A DNA stretch of 64,000 nucleotides from Microbacterium galbinum (GTDB lineage Bacteria; Actinomycetota; Actinomycetes; Actinomycetales; Microbacteriaceae). Made by a program: the position numbers and the translations under genes. The stretch's first letter is position 1; the number at the start of each line of letters is the position of its first letter. Positions 26,213 through 34,671 of the stretch are shown piece by piece. The notes beneath the pieces are model-generated. The model was not told the origin of the DNA, made no database searches, and saw only the letters and a list, made by a program, of their open reading frames with translations. The DNA lies in contig NZ_CP078077.1 in NCBI RefSeq assembly GCF_023101185.1, positions 2,757,630 to 2,821,629 of the forward strand, given 5' to 3'.

Positions 26213-26582
26213 GGGGCTGATCGGTTTCGACAGCGCCTGTGAATCCACGAGAAGCGGGCCGAGGATGCAGAGTTATCTCGTAAACGCTCTCTGCAAAACA
26301 ATAGTTGCCGAAACCAAGCGCAACGACTTCGCCCTCGCTGCATAAGCGAGCCCGATAGTCCGTCAGGCCGTATGTGATTCCGATACGGATCCTGGCGTCA
26401 TCTAGGAATCTTGCTGCGTGGTGGCGTCTGGACGCCACGTGGGACTCTTCCCAGGCTGGGCTCGTCGACTTAGGTGTCTGTGACAAAGGTCGGAGCCGAG
26501 CAGAACGTCTTCACAGACTGCGCCCGGAGAAGGCGTGGAGACTCAGCGTTGGACGGGGGTTCGATTCCCCCCAGCTCCACCA
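26213..26582 (+). ncRNA. ssrA: Transfer-messenger RNA (tmRNA)
   Basis: One-piece tmRNA of about 370 bases that rescues stalled ribosomes. The 5' end GGGGCTGA pairs with the 3' end CAGCTCC before an encoded ACCA. The tRNA-like 5' part continues as the conserved GATCGGTTTCGAC, and the 3' part ends with the T-arm GGGGGTTCGATTCCCCC. The tag frame is at 26307-26345. Pseudoknot stems are visible between but I did not pair them all. A strong terminator follows 19 bases later. Confidence 0.95.
26307..26345 (+). other. tmRNA proteolysis-tag reading frame
   Basis: GCC GAA ACC ... GCT GCA TAA encodes AETKRNDFALAA and a stop. The ending ALAA is the degradation signal recognised by Clp proteases. The resume codon is taken as the GCC at 26307 by analogy with actinobacterial tags of the A-x-TKRxDFALAA type. 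Confidence 0.9.
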
Positions 26583-27187: not shown

Positions 27188-28267
27188 ATGGGAGAGTTCG
27201 TCATCGGAGCGACGATCGAGGGTGCCGAGCCGGTGCAGCTCGACCCACGACGATTCAACCGGCACACCTTCTGGTGCGGCCAGAGCGGCAGCGGCAAGAC
27301 GTACGCGCTGGGCGTGGTGCTCGAGCAGCTGCTCCTGCACACGGAGCTCCCCGTGCTGGTCTTCGATCCCAACGCGGATTTCGTGCGGTTGCGTGAGATC
27401 CGCCCCGGCACCGATGACGCAGCGGCGCGCCGACTGGGCGATCTCGATGTCCGTGTGTTCCGCTCCGGCCGTGCGGAGGGCGAGCGCCTACGGGTGCGCT
27501 ACGTGGACCTCTCGCCGGCGGCCAAGGCCGCTGTGCTGCGCATCGATCCGATCGCGGATGCCGAGGAGTACAACGCGCTGCTGCACACGCAGGTGTCGTC
27601 CGGGCAGTTCGATTCGGCGGAGATGATCCGCGGCCTCCGCGAGAGCGGGGAGGCGGTGAAGGTGCGACTCGCGAATCGCATGGAGAACCTCCAAGTGCTC
27701 GAGTGGGAGCTGTGGTCGCGTGGTGCGGCATCCGTCGTCGACGTGATCAGCGAGCGCCCGAGGGCGACGGTCCTCGACCTCGGAGGCTTCGATCATCCGG
27801 CCGAACCCGGCGTCGCCGCCCTGGCCGTTCTGGAGGATCTCTGGGCGCGTCGGGAAGAGCGCCGACCGCTGCTGATAGTGATCGACGAGGCTCATAACCT
27901 CTGCGTTCCGGAGCCGACGACGGCCGTGGAACGGGAGTTGACGGCACGCCTCGTGCAGATCGCCGCGGAGGGGCGGAAGTTCGGGCTGTGGCTCTTCCTG
28001 TCGACACAGCGCCCCACGAAGATCCACCCGAACGTGCTGTCGCAGTGCGACAACCTCGGGCTGATGCGCGTCAACGCTCCACGCGATCTCGCCGAACTCG
28101 CCGAAGTGTTCGGGTTCGCCTCGGAGGACGCCATCCGTCGTGCGCAGACCTTCGCGCAGGGTCAGGCGCTGTTCGCCGGCGGTTTCATCGCCGAGCCGAC
28201 GTTCGTGCAGATGGGAGCGCGTCTCACCGAGGAGGCGGGCGGCGACGTCCGTGTACCGATCGCGTAA
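27188..28267 (+). CDS. HerA-like / DUF87 P-loop ATPase
   Basis: 359 residues. Walker A is WCGQSGSGKTYALG (about 33-42), Walker B LLIVIDEAHNL (about 230) and the sensor/arginine region FLSTQRPTKIHPNVLSQCDN (about 275-295). This is the HerA-FtsK ATPase arrangement with a short N-terminal beta segment and no membrane helices. HerA proteins usually pump DNA with the nuclease NurA or with a defence effector; no such partner is adjacent. GAGGGG precedes the ATG at 27188. The job is unknown. Confidence 0.85.
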   Translation: MGEFVIGATIEGAEPVQLDPRRFNRHTFWCGQSGSGKTYALGVVLEQLLLHTELPVLVFDPNADFVRLREIRPGTDDAAARRLGDLDVRVFRSGRAEGERLRVRYVDLSPAAKAAVLRIDPIADAEEYNALLHTQVSSGQFDSAEMIRGLRESGEAVKVRLANRMENLQVLEWELWSRGAASVVDVISERPRATVLDLGGFDHPAEPGVAALAVLEDLWARREERRPLLIVIDEAHNLCVPEPTTAVERELTARLVQIAAEGRKFGLWLFLSTQRPTKIHPNVLSQCDNLGLMRVNAPRDLAELAEVFGFASEDAIRRAQTFAQGQALFAGGFIAEPTFVQMGARLTEEAGGDVRVPIA

Positions 28268-30072: not shown

Positions 30073-30113
30073 TCCGTGCACCCCCTGGGACTTGAACCCA
30101 GAACCCACTGATT
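30073..30113 (+). repeat. Left attachment repeat: orphan 3' half of tRNA-Lys
   Basis: 41 bases identical to 34595-34635. They contain the tRNA-Lys acceptor 3' strand, T-arm, variable region and anticodon 3' stem, plus four bases past the 3' end. Identity stops within the anticodon loop. The remaining 5' half of a tRNA is absent here, so this copy cannot form a tRNA. Confidence 0.93.
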
Positions 30114-30219
30114 CAGAGAGCTTGGGCCTGGGTCCCCGTCGTCCCCCGATCTGACCGGAAAGCCCCGAAACACACGGGTCGCGGGATAACGACCGGGGAT
30201 GTCCGGGAGGAGCGGCGGC

Positions 30220-30319: not shown

Positions 30320-30497
30320 TCCTGACCTTGAGGCTCAGGTACAGCGACGCATAACTCAGCTCGTCGAGAACAAGCTCAGCCCTCAGTCGTATGTCCGAGC
30401 CGTCTCAAGAACTCCCCGCTCGCGGCGTGGAGGGCCATCATTGCGTGCGAACCGATACAGTCAGCATCAACACATCTGGCAAAGACGCGGGGGCAAA

Positions 30498-32264
30498 ATG
30501 ATTCTCGAGGCAGTGACTATCAGCGGGTTCCGATCTATCGACGGACCTTTGCGCGTCCCTGTTGGGTCACCCACCGTCCTGGCGGGTCACAATGATGCTG
30601 GGAAGAGTGCAGCGATTGAGGCCATCGCGTTTCTTCTAGACGCCGTCAAATTGTCAGACCGTGATCGCACCTACGACAAGACTGGCCCAGACGGCCAACT
30701 CACACGTGTTAGTGAGACTGTCGTTGAGGGAGAGTTCAAGCTTCGTCCGGAAGAGCAACAGTATTTCGATGGAGGTGCCACCGCTCGGCTTCGACGCATC
30801 TACAACGAAAAGGGCACCGCGTTGGAGGTGCTGTCGGCAGTGCCGGTGGACGAGCGCCTGCAAGATCTCAACGCGCAGGACGTCAAGACTCTGAGGTTCC
30901 GCCTGCAGGGCCTCGGTATGAGTGACCAGGGCCTGAAGGCAGACCTGATCGACAGGCTTAGCTCACTGCTGCCTGATGCAGAGAAGGTTGAGCAGTGGGT
31001 CTCAGCTGCAGCCGAGATCAAGCGGTTACTCCCCCGAGTGCAGCGGTTCGATGCGACGTCGACGCAGGACCCCGAAGACGCCATCCTTGCGACGCTGAAG
31101 ACGTCGTACGCAAGCCACACACAGGACGAGGAAATCAAGGGCGATCTGGACACCATCACACGCACGTTGCAAGAACGCGTCGCGGACGACGCCGAATCTC
31201 TGAGACAGCACCTCAAGAAGACTTGCGAAGACATCGGCGAGATTGCGATTCACCCGTCTGTGCGTCTGGACAGCGGCCTAAAGTCAATCGAAGTCAGTGC
31301 GACGAACCAACGGGGCGAAGCAGTCCACTTAGGCCAGTCAGGCGCGGGGCGAACACGGCGAATTGCCCTAGCTGTGTGGGAGTTCAATGCCGACTTGCTA
31401 AGCGGCTCCGACACCGATGTTGTTCTGCTCTACGACGAGCCGGATACGCACCTTGACTACAGTCACCAGCGCGGATTCATGAAGCTCTTGAAGGCGCAGT
31501 CTGAGATAGAGAACGTTAGGGTCGTTGTAGCCACCCACTCTATGAACCTCATCGACGGTGTCGACATCGCGAGCATCGTTCACCTTCGTCATGTCAACAG
31601 TCGCACCACCGCGGATCAGGTAACCGACGATTCAGAGGTCGGTTCGCATCTCGGTTCTATTGCAGCGTCGCTCGGACTCCGGAACACCGTGCTTCTACAT
31701 GAGCGCCTCTTCGTTGGAGTTGAAGGAGCGACCGAGAGTCGGGCACTTCCAGTGCTCTTCAAGCTGGCAACAGGTCGACACCTACAAGCCTGCGGAATCG
31801 CGGTTTGGCCGTGCGACAACAACGACGGTGCGTTGCGATTCGCTCAGTATCTCCACCATCATGGCCGCGACGTTGTTCTTGTCGTAGATGAAGATTCGCG
31901 CGACCTGAAGGTCTTTTCGGAAGCCTCTCTGAGCAGGCACGATCTGAGCCTTCAAGATCACGTGATGACGGTAGGCACAAGGGAACTAGAAGACTGCTTC
32001 TCAGACGCTCAGTGGGCTGCATGCGCAAACCGCGAGTGGCCTCGAGTGGATGAACAGCCATGGTCGGACGACGATTTTGCGGCGCATCGGGCAGGCAAGT
32101 TCAGCTCACTCGTTGAGAAGATGGTCCGAGAAAACAGCTCTGTCGAGGTCAGTGGCAAACCGGAGATTCTTAGCAAACTAGCGGTCGGCCTGCACTCCGC
32201 TGGAGACGTTCCCGAGCCACTCCATGCCCTCTTTTCTGAGCTGATTAGACGCGCCGAGTACTAA
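30498..32264 (+). CDS. OLD-family ATPase-TOPRIM nuclease, candidate phage defence
   Basis: 588 residues. The N-terminal SMC/ABC-type ATPase has Walker A GHNDAGKSA (about 31-39), a helical insert (about 120-240), a signature-like LGQSGAGRTRR (about 282), Walker B VVLLYDEPDTHLD (about 313) and a switch THSMN. The C-terminal TOPRIM domain has the catalytic Glu in VGVEGATESRALPVLF (about 410) and the acidic pair in VVLVVDEDSRD (about 465). This is the architecture of OLD nucleases, including P2 Old and the GajA subunit of Gabija. No UvrD-like GajB or other partner is encoded nearby, so a single-gene OLD is the better reading. The ATG at 30498 follows a G-rich stretch. Base and codon use are more A/T-rich than in neighbours, fitting transfer. 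Confidence 0.85.
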   Translation: MILEAVTISGFRSIDGPLRVPVGSPTVLAGHNDAGKSAAIEAIAFLLDAVKLSDRDRTYDKTGPDGQLTRVSETVVEGEFKLRPEEQQYFDGGATARLRRIYNEKGTALEVLSAVPVDERLQDLNAQDVKTLRFRLQGLGMSDQGLKADLIDRLSSLLPDAEKVEQWVSAAAEIKRLLPRVQRFDATSTQDPEDAILATLKTSYASHTQDEEIKGDLDTITRTLQERVADDAESLRQHLKKTCEDIGEIAIHPSVRLDSGLKSIEVSATNQRGEAVHLGQSGAGRTRRIALAVWEFNADLLSGSDTDVVLLYDEPDTHLDYSHQRGFMKLLKAQSEIENVRVVVATHSMNLIDGVDIASIVHLRHVNSRTTADQVTDDSEVGSHLGSIAASLGLRNTVLLHERLFVGVEGATESRALPVLFKLATGRHLQACGIAVWPCDNNDGALRFAQYLHHHGRDVVLVVDEDSRDLKVFSEASLSRHDLSLQDHVMTVGTRELEDCFSDAQWAACANREWPRVDEQPWSDDDFAAHRAGKFSSLVEKMVRENSSVEVSGKPEILSKLAVGLHSAGDVPEPLHALFSELIRRAEY

Positions 32265-32631: not shown

Positions 32632-33619
32632 AAGGACACGACACGCGACGGCTACGACATCGCTTACCGCGTGCACATCTACCCGAGGTCCGGAGACCGG
32701 CGCATCAACACCATCACGAGCATTGAGGTCAAGGCTAGGTTGAAGGACAGGCGAGATCAGCACTCCGCTCGGGCGAAGAAGAAGCTCTCCGCGAGCACCA
32801 GCCACGGAGCTTGGACAGCGATCAACGCCGTCTTCAAATACGCGCACCGGTACGGCCTGATCACAGCGAACCCGTGCGAGGCCGTCAAGAAGCCCCGCGT
32901 GAAGGTCGAGAAGCGGCGCGAGTCCCCGTTGCAGCCGGGGCATGTCGCCCAGCTTGCCCGCCTACTCGACAGCCACGCTCCCTACGGGCTGTTGGTGCGG
33001 TTCGCCGCGCACATTGGCCTCCGCGAGGGCCGAGCTAGCAGCGCTCACCGTGGCCGACGTCACGAGCATGGGCACGGTCGCGAGCAAGGTCCGGGTCGAG
33101 CGGTCGGTACGCCGAGTGAAGGGCGGATGGAAGTCGGACGCGCCCAAGACGGCGGCGGGGCGGTGCTCTACGCCTCTGCCCCGAGCGCTACGCGACGAAC
33201 TCGTGGCCCCTCTCGCCAAGCAGTCGTACCGGGGCAACCCCAGTGCCGCTCTGTGGCCAGGGCGAGTCCCCGGGAGCGGCGGCGACCCGCGCGGGCTGGA
33301 CTACAAGCGACAGTTCGACGTCGGCTCGGCCATCCGCTACTACTTCAAGCCGGCGCTGAAGGAACTGTGGCTGGTCGGCGTCCGGTGGCGCGACCTCCGC
33401 CACCACTACGCCACGGTCATGATCTCGATGATCGGCAAGGGTGCTCAGTAGACGATCTACGAGGTCAGCCGATGGATGGGGCACGCGAGCTACCAGACGA
33501 CGGTAGACGTCTACGGCCACCTGCTCGAAGCCAAGCCGAACGTGGACATTCTGGACGACATCATGACGGCGGCGGAGGCGGACGCCGGAACGGTCACCCC
33601 GCTCAGGCGTGCGATCTAG
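32632..33619 (+). pseudogene. Tyrosine recombinase/integrase, inactivated
   Basis: The core-binding domain begins at about 32632 (HIYPRSGDRRINTITSIEVK; GLITANPCEAVKKPRVK) and the catalytic domain follows. It is broken four times. The N-terminal arm domain is missing, with an in-frame TGA at 32596. A one-base gain in a GGG run near 33029 shifts GLRE/AELAALTV out of frame. A TAG at 33449 interrupts before TIYEVSRWMGHAS. The first His of the usual HDLRH box is Arg (WRDLRHHYA). The nucleophile Tyr region (DVYGHLL) is still visible beyond the stop. It is surely the integrase that placed the island and is now dead. Its last stop shares CTAG with the stop of the convergent Abi-like gene. Confidence 0.88.
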
Positions 33620-34464
33620 GAGCGGCGAGCGAGCGCGTCAGACGAGAACCACTGGACCAGCGGTACCGCGAGCAACACGGCAGCCTCGGCTTCGGCCTGG
33701 GTCGGCTTGCGGTAGCCGTTCCCTCCATGTCTGCTCTCCTGATCGACCCACAGCGCCTCGGCCATCTGGACAGCGACGTTGCCGTGCGACGGGCCGAACG
33801 CGATGGCCCAGTCCTTCTGCGCCTTCATGTCGCGCACCATCGACCCAAGCGTTGCCTTGTTGTTCTTGGGTGAAACCTTGTCGGTGCCCGCCTCCTCGAC
33901 CGCTTTGATCGCCTTCTCGTAGGCCTCCTCGGGATCAGGTGACCTGCCGAACGCGGCATGCCACGCCTCCGCCAACAGCGCGCCCGCGTCGCCAGAGTTC
34001 GCGATCGTTTCTTCGGCAGCAAGCGCGACGCCCTCGGGTACCCGTTTCTCTAGTGAGACGTGACCGTCTCTTCTACCGACCGCCCACTCCGAACCAGCGT
34101 CGCGCAGCAAGTCCTCTAGAGCACCTTTGAACTCATTGGCTTGCCACCCGAGTCGCTCTGTATGGAATAAGAGAAAGTCGACGAAGTCCAGGAACTCCTC
34201 GGCGCCCATGGCCTCTTGGACACCCGTCACGCCGGACTGTCGAAGGTTCAGCAGCAAGGATCGTGAGCGCCTCGTCGCGGTCTCGAACTCCTGCAGAAGC
34301 TCAGGATCAGCGGAGTACCCGCCGTCGATCGTGCCGTGATTCGTTCTCCGCAAACCCATCACGGCAGTGGCCCACAAGATCAGCGGACGAAGCATCCATG
34401 CGGGAATACCGGTGTGAAGGACGGCCAATTCAGCTGGATCAGATCGTCGGGAGCGCCACTGCAT
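33616..34464 (-). CDS. Abortive-infection-like protein (Abi C-terminal/HEPN-like)
   Basis: 282 residues from the ATG at 34464 (MQWRSRRSDPAELAVL); a GTG at 34512 would add 16 residues and cannot be excluded. The N-terminal half (IPAWMLRPLILWA, EFLDFVDFLLFHTE) is helical. The C-terminal half reads SPDPEEAYEKAIKAVEEAG, VSPKNNKATLGSMVRDMK, and DWAIAFGPSHGNVAVQMAEALW, a pattern like the C-terminal domain of abortive-infection proteins and related HEPN-type RNases. An R-x4-6-H HEPN motif is not clear. It may act independently of the OLD-type gene, being on the opposite strand 1.35 kb away. Confidence 0.6.
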   Translation of the reverse strand: MQWRSRRSDPAELAVLHTGIPAWMLRPLILWATAVMGLRRTNHGTIDGGYSADPELLQEFETATRRSRSLLLNLRQSGVTGVQEAMGAEEFLDFVDFLLFHTERLGWQANEFKGALEDLLRDAGSEWAVGRRDGHVSLEKRVPEGVALAAEETIANSGDAGALLAEAWHAAFGRSPDPEEAYEKAIKAVEEAGTDKVSPKNNKATLGSMVRDMKAQKDWAIAFGPSHGNVAVQMAEALWVDQESRHGGNGYRKPTQAEAEAAVLLAVPLVQWFSSDALARRS

Positions 34465-34511
34465 GAGTTCATCTTCCCGTGGGATACCGACGTTGCCAAT
34501 TGGGACACGCA

Positions 34512-34525
34512 CTGTTTTCGCGCTG
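34512..34525 (+). repeat. 14-bp direct repeat, right copy (possible integrase arm site)
   Basis: Second copy of CTGTTTTCGCGCTG, matching 30220-30233 in the same orientation; its first base coincides with the alternative GTG start region of the Abi-like gene. Confidence 0.45.
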
Positions 34526-34594: not shown

Positions 34595-34635
34595 TCCGTG
34601 CACCCCCTGGGACTTGAACCCAGAACCCACTGATT
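34595..34635 (+). repeat. Right attachment repeat within intact tRNA-Lys
   Basis: 41 bases identical to 30073-30113. The repeat runs from four bases beyond the tRNA 3' end to the anticodon loop, ending one base before the anticodon (34636-34638). Confidence 0.93.
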
Positions 34636-34671
34636 AAGAGTCAGTTGCTCTGCCGATTGAGCTAGAGGTGC
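34599..34671 (-). tRNA. tRNA-Lys(CTT)
   Basis: 73 bases on the minus strand, CCA not encoded. The acceptor stem GCACCTC/GGGGTGC has one wobble. The D-arm is AGCTCAATCGGCAGAGC, the anticodon stem-loop is ACTGA-CTCTTAA-TCAGT with anticodon CTT (34638-34636), and the T-arm is CTGGGTTCAAGTCCCAG. Its 3' half is duplicated at 30073 by the island insertion. Confidence 0.96.

Follow-up and report, generated by a model that had tools for sequence, protein, structure and literature searches.

In a 64,000-nucleotide stretch of the Microbacterium galbinum genome (hereafter the window), we find a true, well-kept solo OLD gene, one of a known kind that has a variant feature and interesting relatives. It retains its ATPase and TOPRIM motifs and lies in a small island whose two ends can be placed at a tRNA-Lys gene; no partner gene is present in the island, and cargo has been swapped at the same site within the species. 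On balance, we favor the explanation that its product is a Class 1-type solo nuclease, gated by ATP and directed against invading DNA, and carried as swappable cargo of the tRNA-Lys island. Both the nuclease activity and the anti-phage role of this protein are predicted from its sequence.

The gene (30498..32264, forward strand) encodes P0001, an OLD-family ABC-ATPase/TOPRIM protein of 588 aa recognized by its open reading frame, Pfam, PADLOC, and alignment. The frame begins with ATG at 30498, its stop codon ends at 32264, and it has no internal stops; an alternative TTG start at 30441 would lengthen the protein by 19 aa. Pfam places AAA_15 (E = 2.2e-18) and OLD-like_TOPRIM (PF20469, E = 1.3e-7) in it, both above their cut-offs. 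A preliminary description of this DNA had claimed a complete ATPase and a complete TOPRIM site, and every motif that it quoted could be located in the intact protein: the Walker A motif GHNDAGKSA (residues 30-38, 30585..30611), LGQSGAGRT (residues 278-286), the Walker B/D-loop LLYDEPDTHLD (residues 310-320, 31425..31457), VEGATES (residues 408-414), and VDEDSRD (residues 463-469). With a GC content of 0.576, the gene stands apart from the window as a whole (0.681). It is also the sole match to P0001, and the sole match to PF20469, in the 3.46-Mb host genome.

The residues expected in the two active sites are strongly conserved. In an alignment of 35 rows that includes window OLD, with shorter or truncated rows and near-duplicates dropped, K36 of Walker A, D313 and E314 of Walker B, H347, G410, the TOPRIM glutamates E409 and E413 of EGATE (31722..31736, forward strand), D464, and E496 are identical throughout. 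The second aspartate of the TOPRIM DxD (D464 and D466, 31887..31895) and E498 of E496-L-E498 (31983..31991) are identical in 34 of the 35 rows, and K534 (32097..32099) in 33; these features too, like the Walker motifs, are read on the forward strand. Roles can be proposed for these residues from the literature on the metal ligands and Lys/Arg of TsOLD and BpOLD. By that comparison, E409, D464, and D466 should bind metal A, whereas E413, E496, and E498 should bind metal B, the E496-L-E498 pair being the likely second-metal ligands. K534 may serve as the catalytic Lys/Arg known from OLD nucleases, in the part played by BpOLD K562 or TsOLD R487. A structure model built from two rows (window and L002) reached a mean pLDDT of only 38.7 and a pTM of 0.24; with confidence this low, the fold and active-site geometry of P0001 rest on sequence. 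Against the homologue from Gordonia, which is 66% identical, codon positions 1, 2, and 3 differ at 31, 18, and 61%, respectively, over 587 codons. Such a pattern is typical of a protein maintained by selection.

Its context places window OLD in Class 1, the solo OLDs, of which P2 Old, TsOLD, and YbjD are known examples. Its N-terminal ABC ATPase is joined to a C-terminal TOPRIM domain, each above its Pfam cut-off, and neither a UvrD-like helicase nor a reverse transcriptase lies beside it. The preliminary description had proposed that a single-gene OLD in an actinobacterial tRNA island be tested as a defense system of its own. The idea that a lone OLD is an unrecognized arrangement is not supported in that form: a gene standing by itself is what defines Class 1, and anti-phage phenotypes have been published for solo members. 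Statements here on published OLDs, Gabija, and Cran1 draw on PMC13261556, PMC10568477, PMC7049728, PMC12796447, PMC12407980, PMC8743542, and PMC7824862, and, as cited within those papers, on Patel and Seed 2025, Govande 2025, and Dot 2023. Among PADLOC models, Old ranks best (1.2e-23), followed by mad3 (9e-20), GajA (1.6e-19), and AriA (9.5e-19). Against solved structures, the A1 profile matches TsOLD (6p74) best (3.1e-16), with GajA at 5.3e-11 and PtuA at 1e-9.

It is useful to contrast window OLD with each of the known classes. Its single-gene order of ATPase and TOPRIM is that of P2 Old, Thermus scotoductus OLD (6p74), E. coli YbjD/OldB, and V. cholerae OLD (VcOLD, as described in PMC13261556). 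Unlike these Class 1 proteins, the window branch has a SAP-like segment, and 23 of the 35 rows are shared with branches in which partners or terminal positions occur only in part. The spacing of the presumed second-metal ligand and Lys also differs: D464 and E498 lie 34 residues apart in P0001, as against 49 in TsOLD and 53 in BpOLD, and E498 and K534 lie 36 apart, as against 7 to the TsOLD Arg and 54 to the BpOLD Lys, by published values. These distances are what the sequence offers on a further mark of Class 1, a TOPRIM domain that lacks both the helical insert of Class 2 and a C-terminal helical domain. GajA of Gabija (Class 2) shares the ATPase-TOPRIM layout, a profile match, and a conserved Lys after the TOPRIM core, but its helicase partner, a GajB-like UvrD/PcrA/Rep protein, is absent from the island and does not lie beside the homologues examined. 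PARIS AriA/AriB (Class 4) and retron OLD (Class 3) draw on the same ATPase and TOPRIM superfamilies; however, the two domains are encoded by separate genes in PARIS and fused in one frame in P0001, and no reverse transcriptase occurs among the Pfam matches of the island proteins. Cran1 of the Sulfolobales (Class 5) is likewise a solo OLD-family ATPase-nuclease. Cran1 is reported to be essential and conserved in its order, whereas window OLD is a rare island gene.

The island measures 4568 bp (4.57 kb) counting both repeats, whose copies are 4522 bp apart. The left att repeat (30073..30118) is a copy of the tRNA-Lys 3' end; the right one (34595..34640) lies inside tRNA-Lys(CTT), the integration target, which a tRNA search places at 34598..34671 on the reverse strand. 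The two form an unstranded direct repeat of 46 nt with 98% identity. Thus, the intact tRNA, the far-side copy of its 3' end, and an integrase, albeit a broken one, mark a tRNA-integrated island. The tyrosine integrase remnant (32671..33619, forward strand) matches Phage_int_M at 19.9 bits, below the cut-off. A 229-aa integrase ORF from the same genus (L050) matches it in two frames (32929-33042 and 33032-33610), and an in-frame stop near 33450 closes one of them. Since the integrase is broken, the island has probably lost the ability to move by means of its own integrase. Between the repeats lie the OLD gene, this remnant, and P0002 (298 aa, 33616..34512, reverse strand, shown with a GTG start that is uncertain); no intact gene was seen besides OLD and P0002. 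Neither a helicase nor a reverse transcriptase gene appears among the island ORFs and their Pfam matches, so that the earlier account of a lone gene in a tRNA island, with neither of these adjacent, holds at this locus. That account contained neither the att repeats, the broken integrase, and P0002 nor the SAP-like segment, the cargo swap within the species, and the partners in other branches.

Outside the island, a lone HerA-type ATPase gene (DUF87, 27188-28267, forward strand) lies 0.6 kb from the tmRNA gene (26213-26582). It was considered as a partner of OLD, given a HerA-type gene near the Haloferax homologue, and was rejected as a specific partner because it lies beyond the att repeats and is retained, at 99%, in a same-species genome that lacks OLD. 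It was unmatched in 14 other fetched regions of the genus.

That same-species genome (G053) lacks the OLD gene. It has the same tRNA-Lys, flanks 95-98% identical to those of the window, and a second partial copy of the tRNA end, and it shares about 240 bp with the window inside the left repeat. It also carries an integrase C-terminal fragment and two relatives of P0002, and in place of OLD its cargo is a DUF4062 gene (PF13271, 4.5e-30). In this sibling island of the same species (L006, 2396-6975), the cargo slot is taken by the DUF4062 gene and two P0002 relatives. A sibling island with other cargo at the same tRNA identifies OLD as swappable cargo. Other genomes of the genus have a short version of the site. 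Twelve genomes picked from noncarriers of OLD were searched and 10 fetched, and in all 10 of these a phosphatase-like gene (named by eye) lies 106-226 bp from tRNA-Lys, compared with 4650 bp in the window. Relative to its flanking genes, however, the tRNA-Lys of the window, L006, and L056 points in the opposite direction from that of these 10 genomes (L129-L138), so the latter do not provide the exact empty junction of the island.

The segment that sets the window branch apart is a SAP-like helix-loop-helix in the ATPase half of P0001 (residues 120-157, 30855..30968, forward strand), placed by Pfam and alignment. The Pfam SAP model (PF02037) scores 14.3 bits there (E = 0.033, residues 135-154), below its cut-off of 23.9, whereas the Gordonia homologue reaches 27.3 bits (residues 132-156), above it. 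Scores of 15.5 bits in L007 and 12.5 bits in L008 also fall below the cut-off. At E ≤ 1, a SAP match occurs in 5 of 14 homologues and is absent by Pfam from L010, L011, L014, and L019; the pattern LK...L...GL...G.K.DL...L is recognizable in most aligned rows of the segment. Over the same stretch, P0001 has weak PDB matches to 2rno_A (E = 0.38) and 1zrj_A (E = 0.85), which we take to be SAP proteins. Within open-licence PMC, we found no literature joining the SAP domain with Gabija, and none joining old, SAP domain, anti-phage defense, and TOPRIM. What is new relative to known OLDs is this SAP-like segment, together with the rarity of the homologues and the recurrent neighbors in other branches.

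Homologues are indeed rare among the genomes sampled. Matches to the OLD gene occur in at least 1 of 366 same-genus genomes, matches to the A1 profile in at least 1 of 248 genomes of the order, and matches in the phylum in at least 2 of 396 genomes, one of them 28% identical and partial. A genus that we take to be Streptomyces has them in at least 21 of 392. These counts are lower bounds, with three of up to about 100 candidates scored per genome (five in the order set), and the genus assignment of G388 is presumptive, resting on genes near-identical to named Streptomyces plasmid genes. A scan of genome contigs returned one locus, that of Gordonia spumicola (66% identity). Plasmids gave 13 records, 11 of them from Streptomyces (37-43%), and a single record labeled as phage (MT835746.1, L007) matched at 48%. 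This record is unannotated and entered as "Bacteriophage sp."; it encodes a complete DnaG primase, has the look of a bacterial chromosome contig, and is probably bacterial DNA. Four scans of IMG/VR (P0001, A1, A3, and A4), which rely on exact matches to short peptide patterns and so detect only close relatives, found no relative encoded there. With no IMG/VR relative and a bacterial-looking "phage" record, these scans give the OLD branch no phage link. In the tree of 35 rows, window OLD, the Gordonia protein, and MT835746.1 form a branch with support of 99/98, and the first two pair at 100/100; the tree program warned that the join of the third member may be a long-branch artefact. Near the Gordonia gene are an McrBC pair, at a distance of 2.1 kb, and a resolvase, at 0.7 kb.

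How such a protein might act can be outlined by analogy. Two OLD subunits would dimerize via the helical arm of their ATPase and hold DNA with help from the SAP-like segment, and ATP binding would gate the TOPRIM site. The trigger could be linear or unrepaired DNA of an invader, or a block of a host end-processing nuclease. The protein would then cut DNA or perhaps a tRNA, as reported for P2 Old and AriB, and infection would be stopped. We infer that window OLD watches DNA ends or RecBCD/AdnAB because P2 Old senses loss of RecBC, YbjD acts solo, and Gabija acts where RecBCD is kept off DNA. According to PMC13261556, P2 Old reacts when RecBC is lost, and it cleaves a tRNA, whereas YbjD acts alone, independently of RecBC; Gabija is reported to be licensed where RecBCD is excluded from DNA. 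In the present host, two neighboring ORFs of 1133 and 1268 aa carry PDDEXK_1, and a third PDDEXK_1 gene lies elsewhere. The neighboring pair, with its RecB-type nuclease domains, is probably AdnAB, a possible nuclease for an OLD guard to watch.

In favor of a solo nuclease against invading DNA, we count the Pfam and PADLOC matches, the match to TsOLD, the conservation of catalytic residues, the island ends, the low GC content, the exchange of cargo in G053, the proximity of the Gordonia gene to McrBC and a resolvase, the codon pattern, the two neighboring PDDEXK_1 ORFs of the host, and the published behavior of P2 Old, YbjD, and Gabija. Against it we count the three-member branch with its doubtful join, the lack of a phage link, and the partners found in related branches. 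Two published precedents also weigh against it: YbjD keeps its anti-phage effect without its TOPRIM domain, and Cran1 of archaea is an OLD that does not serve defense.

The partners in related branches bear on the alternative that survives best. We compared 36 loci (the window, Gordonia, L007, 11 Streptomyces plasmid loci, Haloferax, Deinococcus, and 20 others) and scored SbcD, SbcC, an HA-domain helicase, and KTSC as neighbors. The preliminary description had proposed a survey of homologues for recurring partners. Such partners do recur in other branches, whereas none of the four lies beside window OLD, the Gordonia gene, or L007, the three members of its branch. SbcD and SbcC adjoin OLD in 11 of 31 Streptomyces or Streptomyces-like loci (L008, L011, L094, L095, L097-L101, L111, and L104), where they make up eight of the 11 tips of one clade. 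In 10 of these they are directly downstream on the same strand and in one (L104) divergent, and an HA-domain helicase often lies further on; L098 and L099 are near-copies, and the OLD gene of L111 is truncated. A helicase with an HA domain lies ≤500 nt upstream on the same strand in L010, L012, L013, L015, and L103 (long matches) and as a fragment in L107. These neighbor helicases are of the ResIII/DEAD plus HA type, not UvrD; their identity, like that of SbcD and SbcC, was borne out by Pfam in the members tested. In five loci (L014, L015, L018, L019, and L103) from Streptomyces and Haloferax, a KTSC ORF lies 55-59 nt upstream of OLD, confirmed by Pfam in one of the five (1.8e-22). The KTSC domain is known from lysyl-tRNA synthetase. 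Thus, a solo habit does not characterize the family as a whole. Sets of OLD with extra SbcD-SbcC could be an undescribed multigene OLD class; among the 15 papers listed, of 28 matching in open-licence PMC, none joins "overcoming lysogenization defect" with SbcCD.

These neighborhoods raise the possibility, which we regard as considerably less probable than defense, that the family comprises DNA-end processing or repair enzymes of mobile and linear replicons rather than anti-phage proteins. Other members would act together with SbcCD or a helicase of telomere type, and the copy in the island would be a stray of that family. Besides the SbcD-SbcC sets, the placement of the plasmid copies speaks for it. 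In nine of 11 Streptomyces linear plasmid records the best copy lies <20 kb from an end (1.65 expected under uniform placement, P = 2e-7), and in seven it lies <10 kb away (0.82 expected, P = 1e-6), in a set of related records with uniform placement as the sole reference. Each of the three plasmid records with two listed places has an OLD copy at both ends. Among nine contigs of >5 Mb with a match, four have it <25 kb from an end and five farther away. The Haloferax homologue adds Rad50-like, NurA, and HerA-type genes nearby, and Cran1 supplies a precedent. However, the window branch has neither SbcCD nor the HA helicase, the Gordonia gene is near McrBC and two Streptomyces copies are near Mrr-type endonucleases, and replicon ends are generally rich in accessory genes.

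A more elaborate form of this idea is more doubtful still. Window OLD would then be a partnerless stray within a family of SAP-bearing OLDs, so far undescribed, whose substrates are DNA ends. To that family would belong the Streptomyces sets, in which OLD is joined by extra SbcD-SbcC and a helicase of TtrA type close to linear-replicon ends, and, in another branch (Streptomyces and a haloarchaeon), the KTSC pairing. Such a family would police or process the ends of invading or competing linear DNA, and KTSC could even aim the TOPRIM domain at tRNA.

Rather improbable is that a dead island carries decaying cargo and the OLD gene no longer works. The broken integrase and the presence of OLD in at least 1 of 366 same-genus genomes are what one would expect of such an element, but the reading frame is unbroken, none of the catalytic residues has been lost, and the codon pattern relative to Gordonia is that of selection. 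That comparison spans a long past and is therefore compatible with a recent loss of function.

As the only intact genes seen in the island, OLD and P0002 might also form a two-gene system, which we consider very unlikely. Relatives of P0002 occur in 27 of 366 same-genus genomes, as against at least 1 of 366 for OLD, and the cargo beside them differs or is absent. A by-eye guess that P0002 is an abortive-infection protein (Abi_C/HEPN-type) was dropped, since nothing convincing emerged from Pfam, NCBIfam, or PDB; PADLOC and PHROGs gave no match. Regions were fetched for 20 of the 25 P0002 carriers other than the window and G053, and in five of these 20 the relative lies 106-188 bp from a tRNA (four tRNA-Lys and one tRNA-Asn). 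The family may be read from the tRNA promoter. One locus (L054, 5884-7072) is a mini-island of ∼1.2 kb that consists of tRNA-Lys, a P0002 relative, and the tRNA-end repeat, with no other gene called between.

Least probable of all is a degenerate Gabija that has lost GajB: PADLOC GajA models do match (1.6e-19) and K534 would follow the TOPRIM core as in Class 2 enzymes, but the Old model scores better, the best solved match is Class 1 TsOLD, and, by the preliminary description's own standard of a GajB-like helicase beside the homologues, the 36 loci hold one UvrD-family gene, in L011, 5.5 kb from OLD with other genes between, in a search by one tblastn query protein and published annotations that could miss remote UvrD genes in 20 unannotated loci.

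The reading of window OLD as a solo defense nuclease touches on a question raised in the field. A 2023 review lists among the open questions whether broad anti-phage defense can come from a Class 1 OLD by itself, and a 2026 paper (PMC13261556) offers one solo OLD example with a modest effect. Window OLD is a compact natural test of this question: one gene in one island, with a same-species genome that lacks it. Its embedded SAP-like segment is removable, and its host appears to have AdnAB-like rather than obvious RecBCD genes. More broadly, the other branches show which partners OLDs can acquire, namely SbcCD, the HA helicase, and KTSC, and so bear on how solo OLDs become multigene systems.
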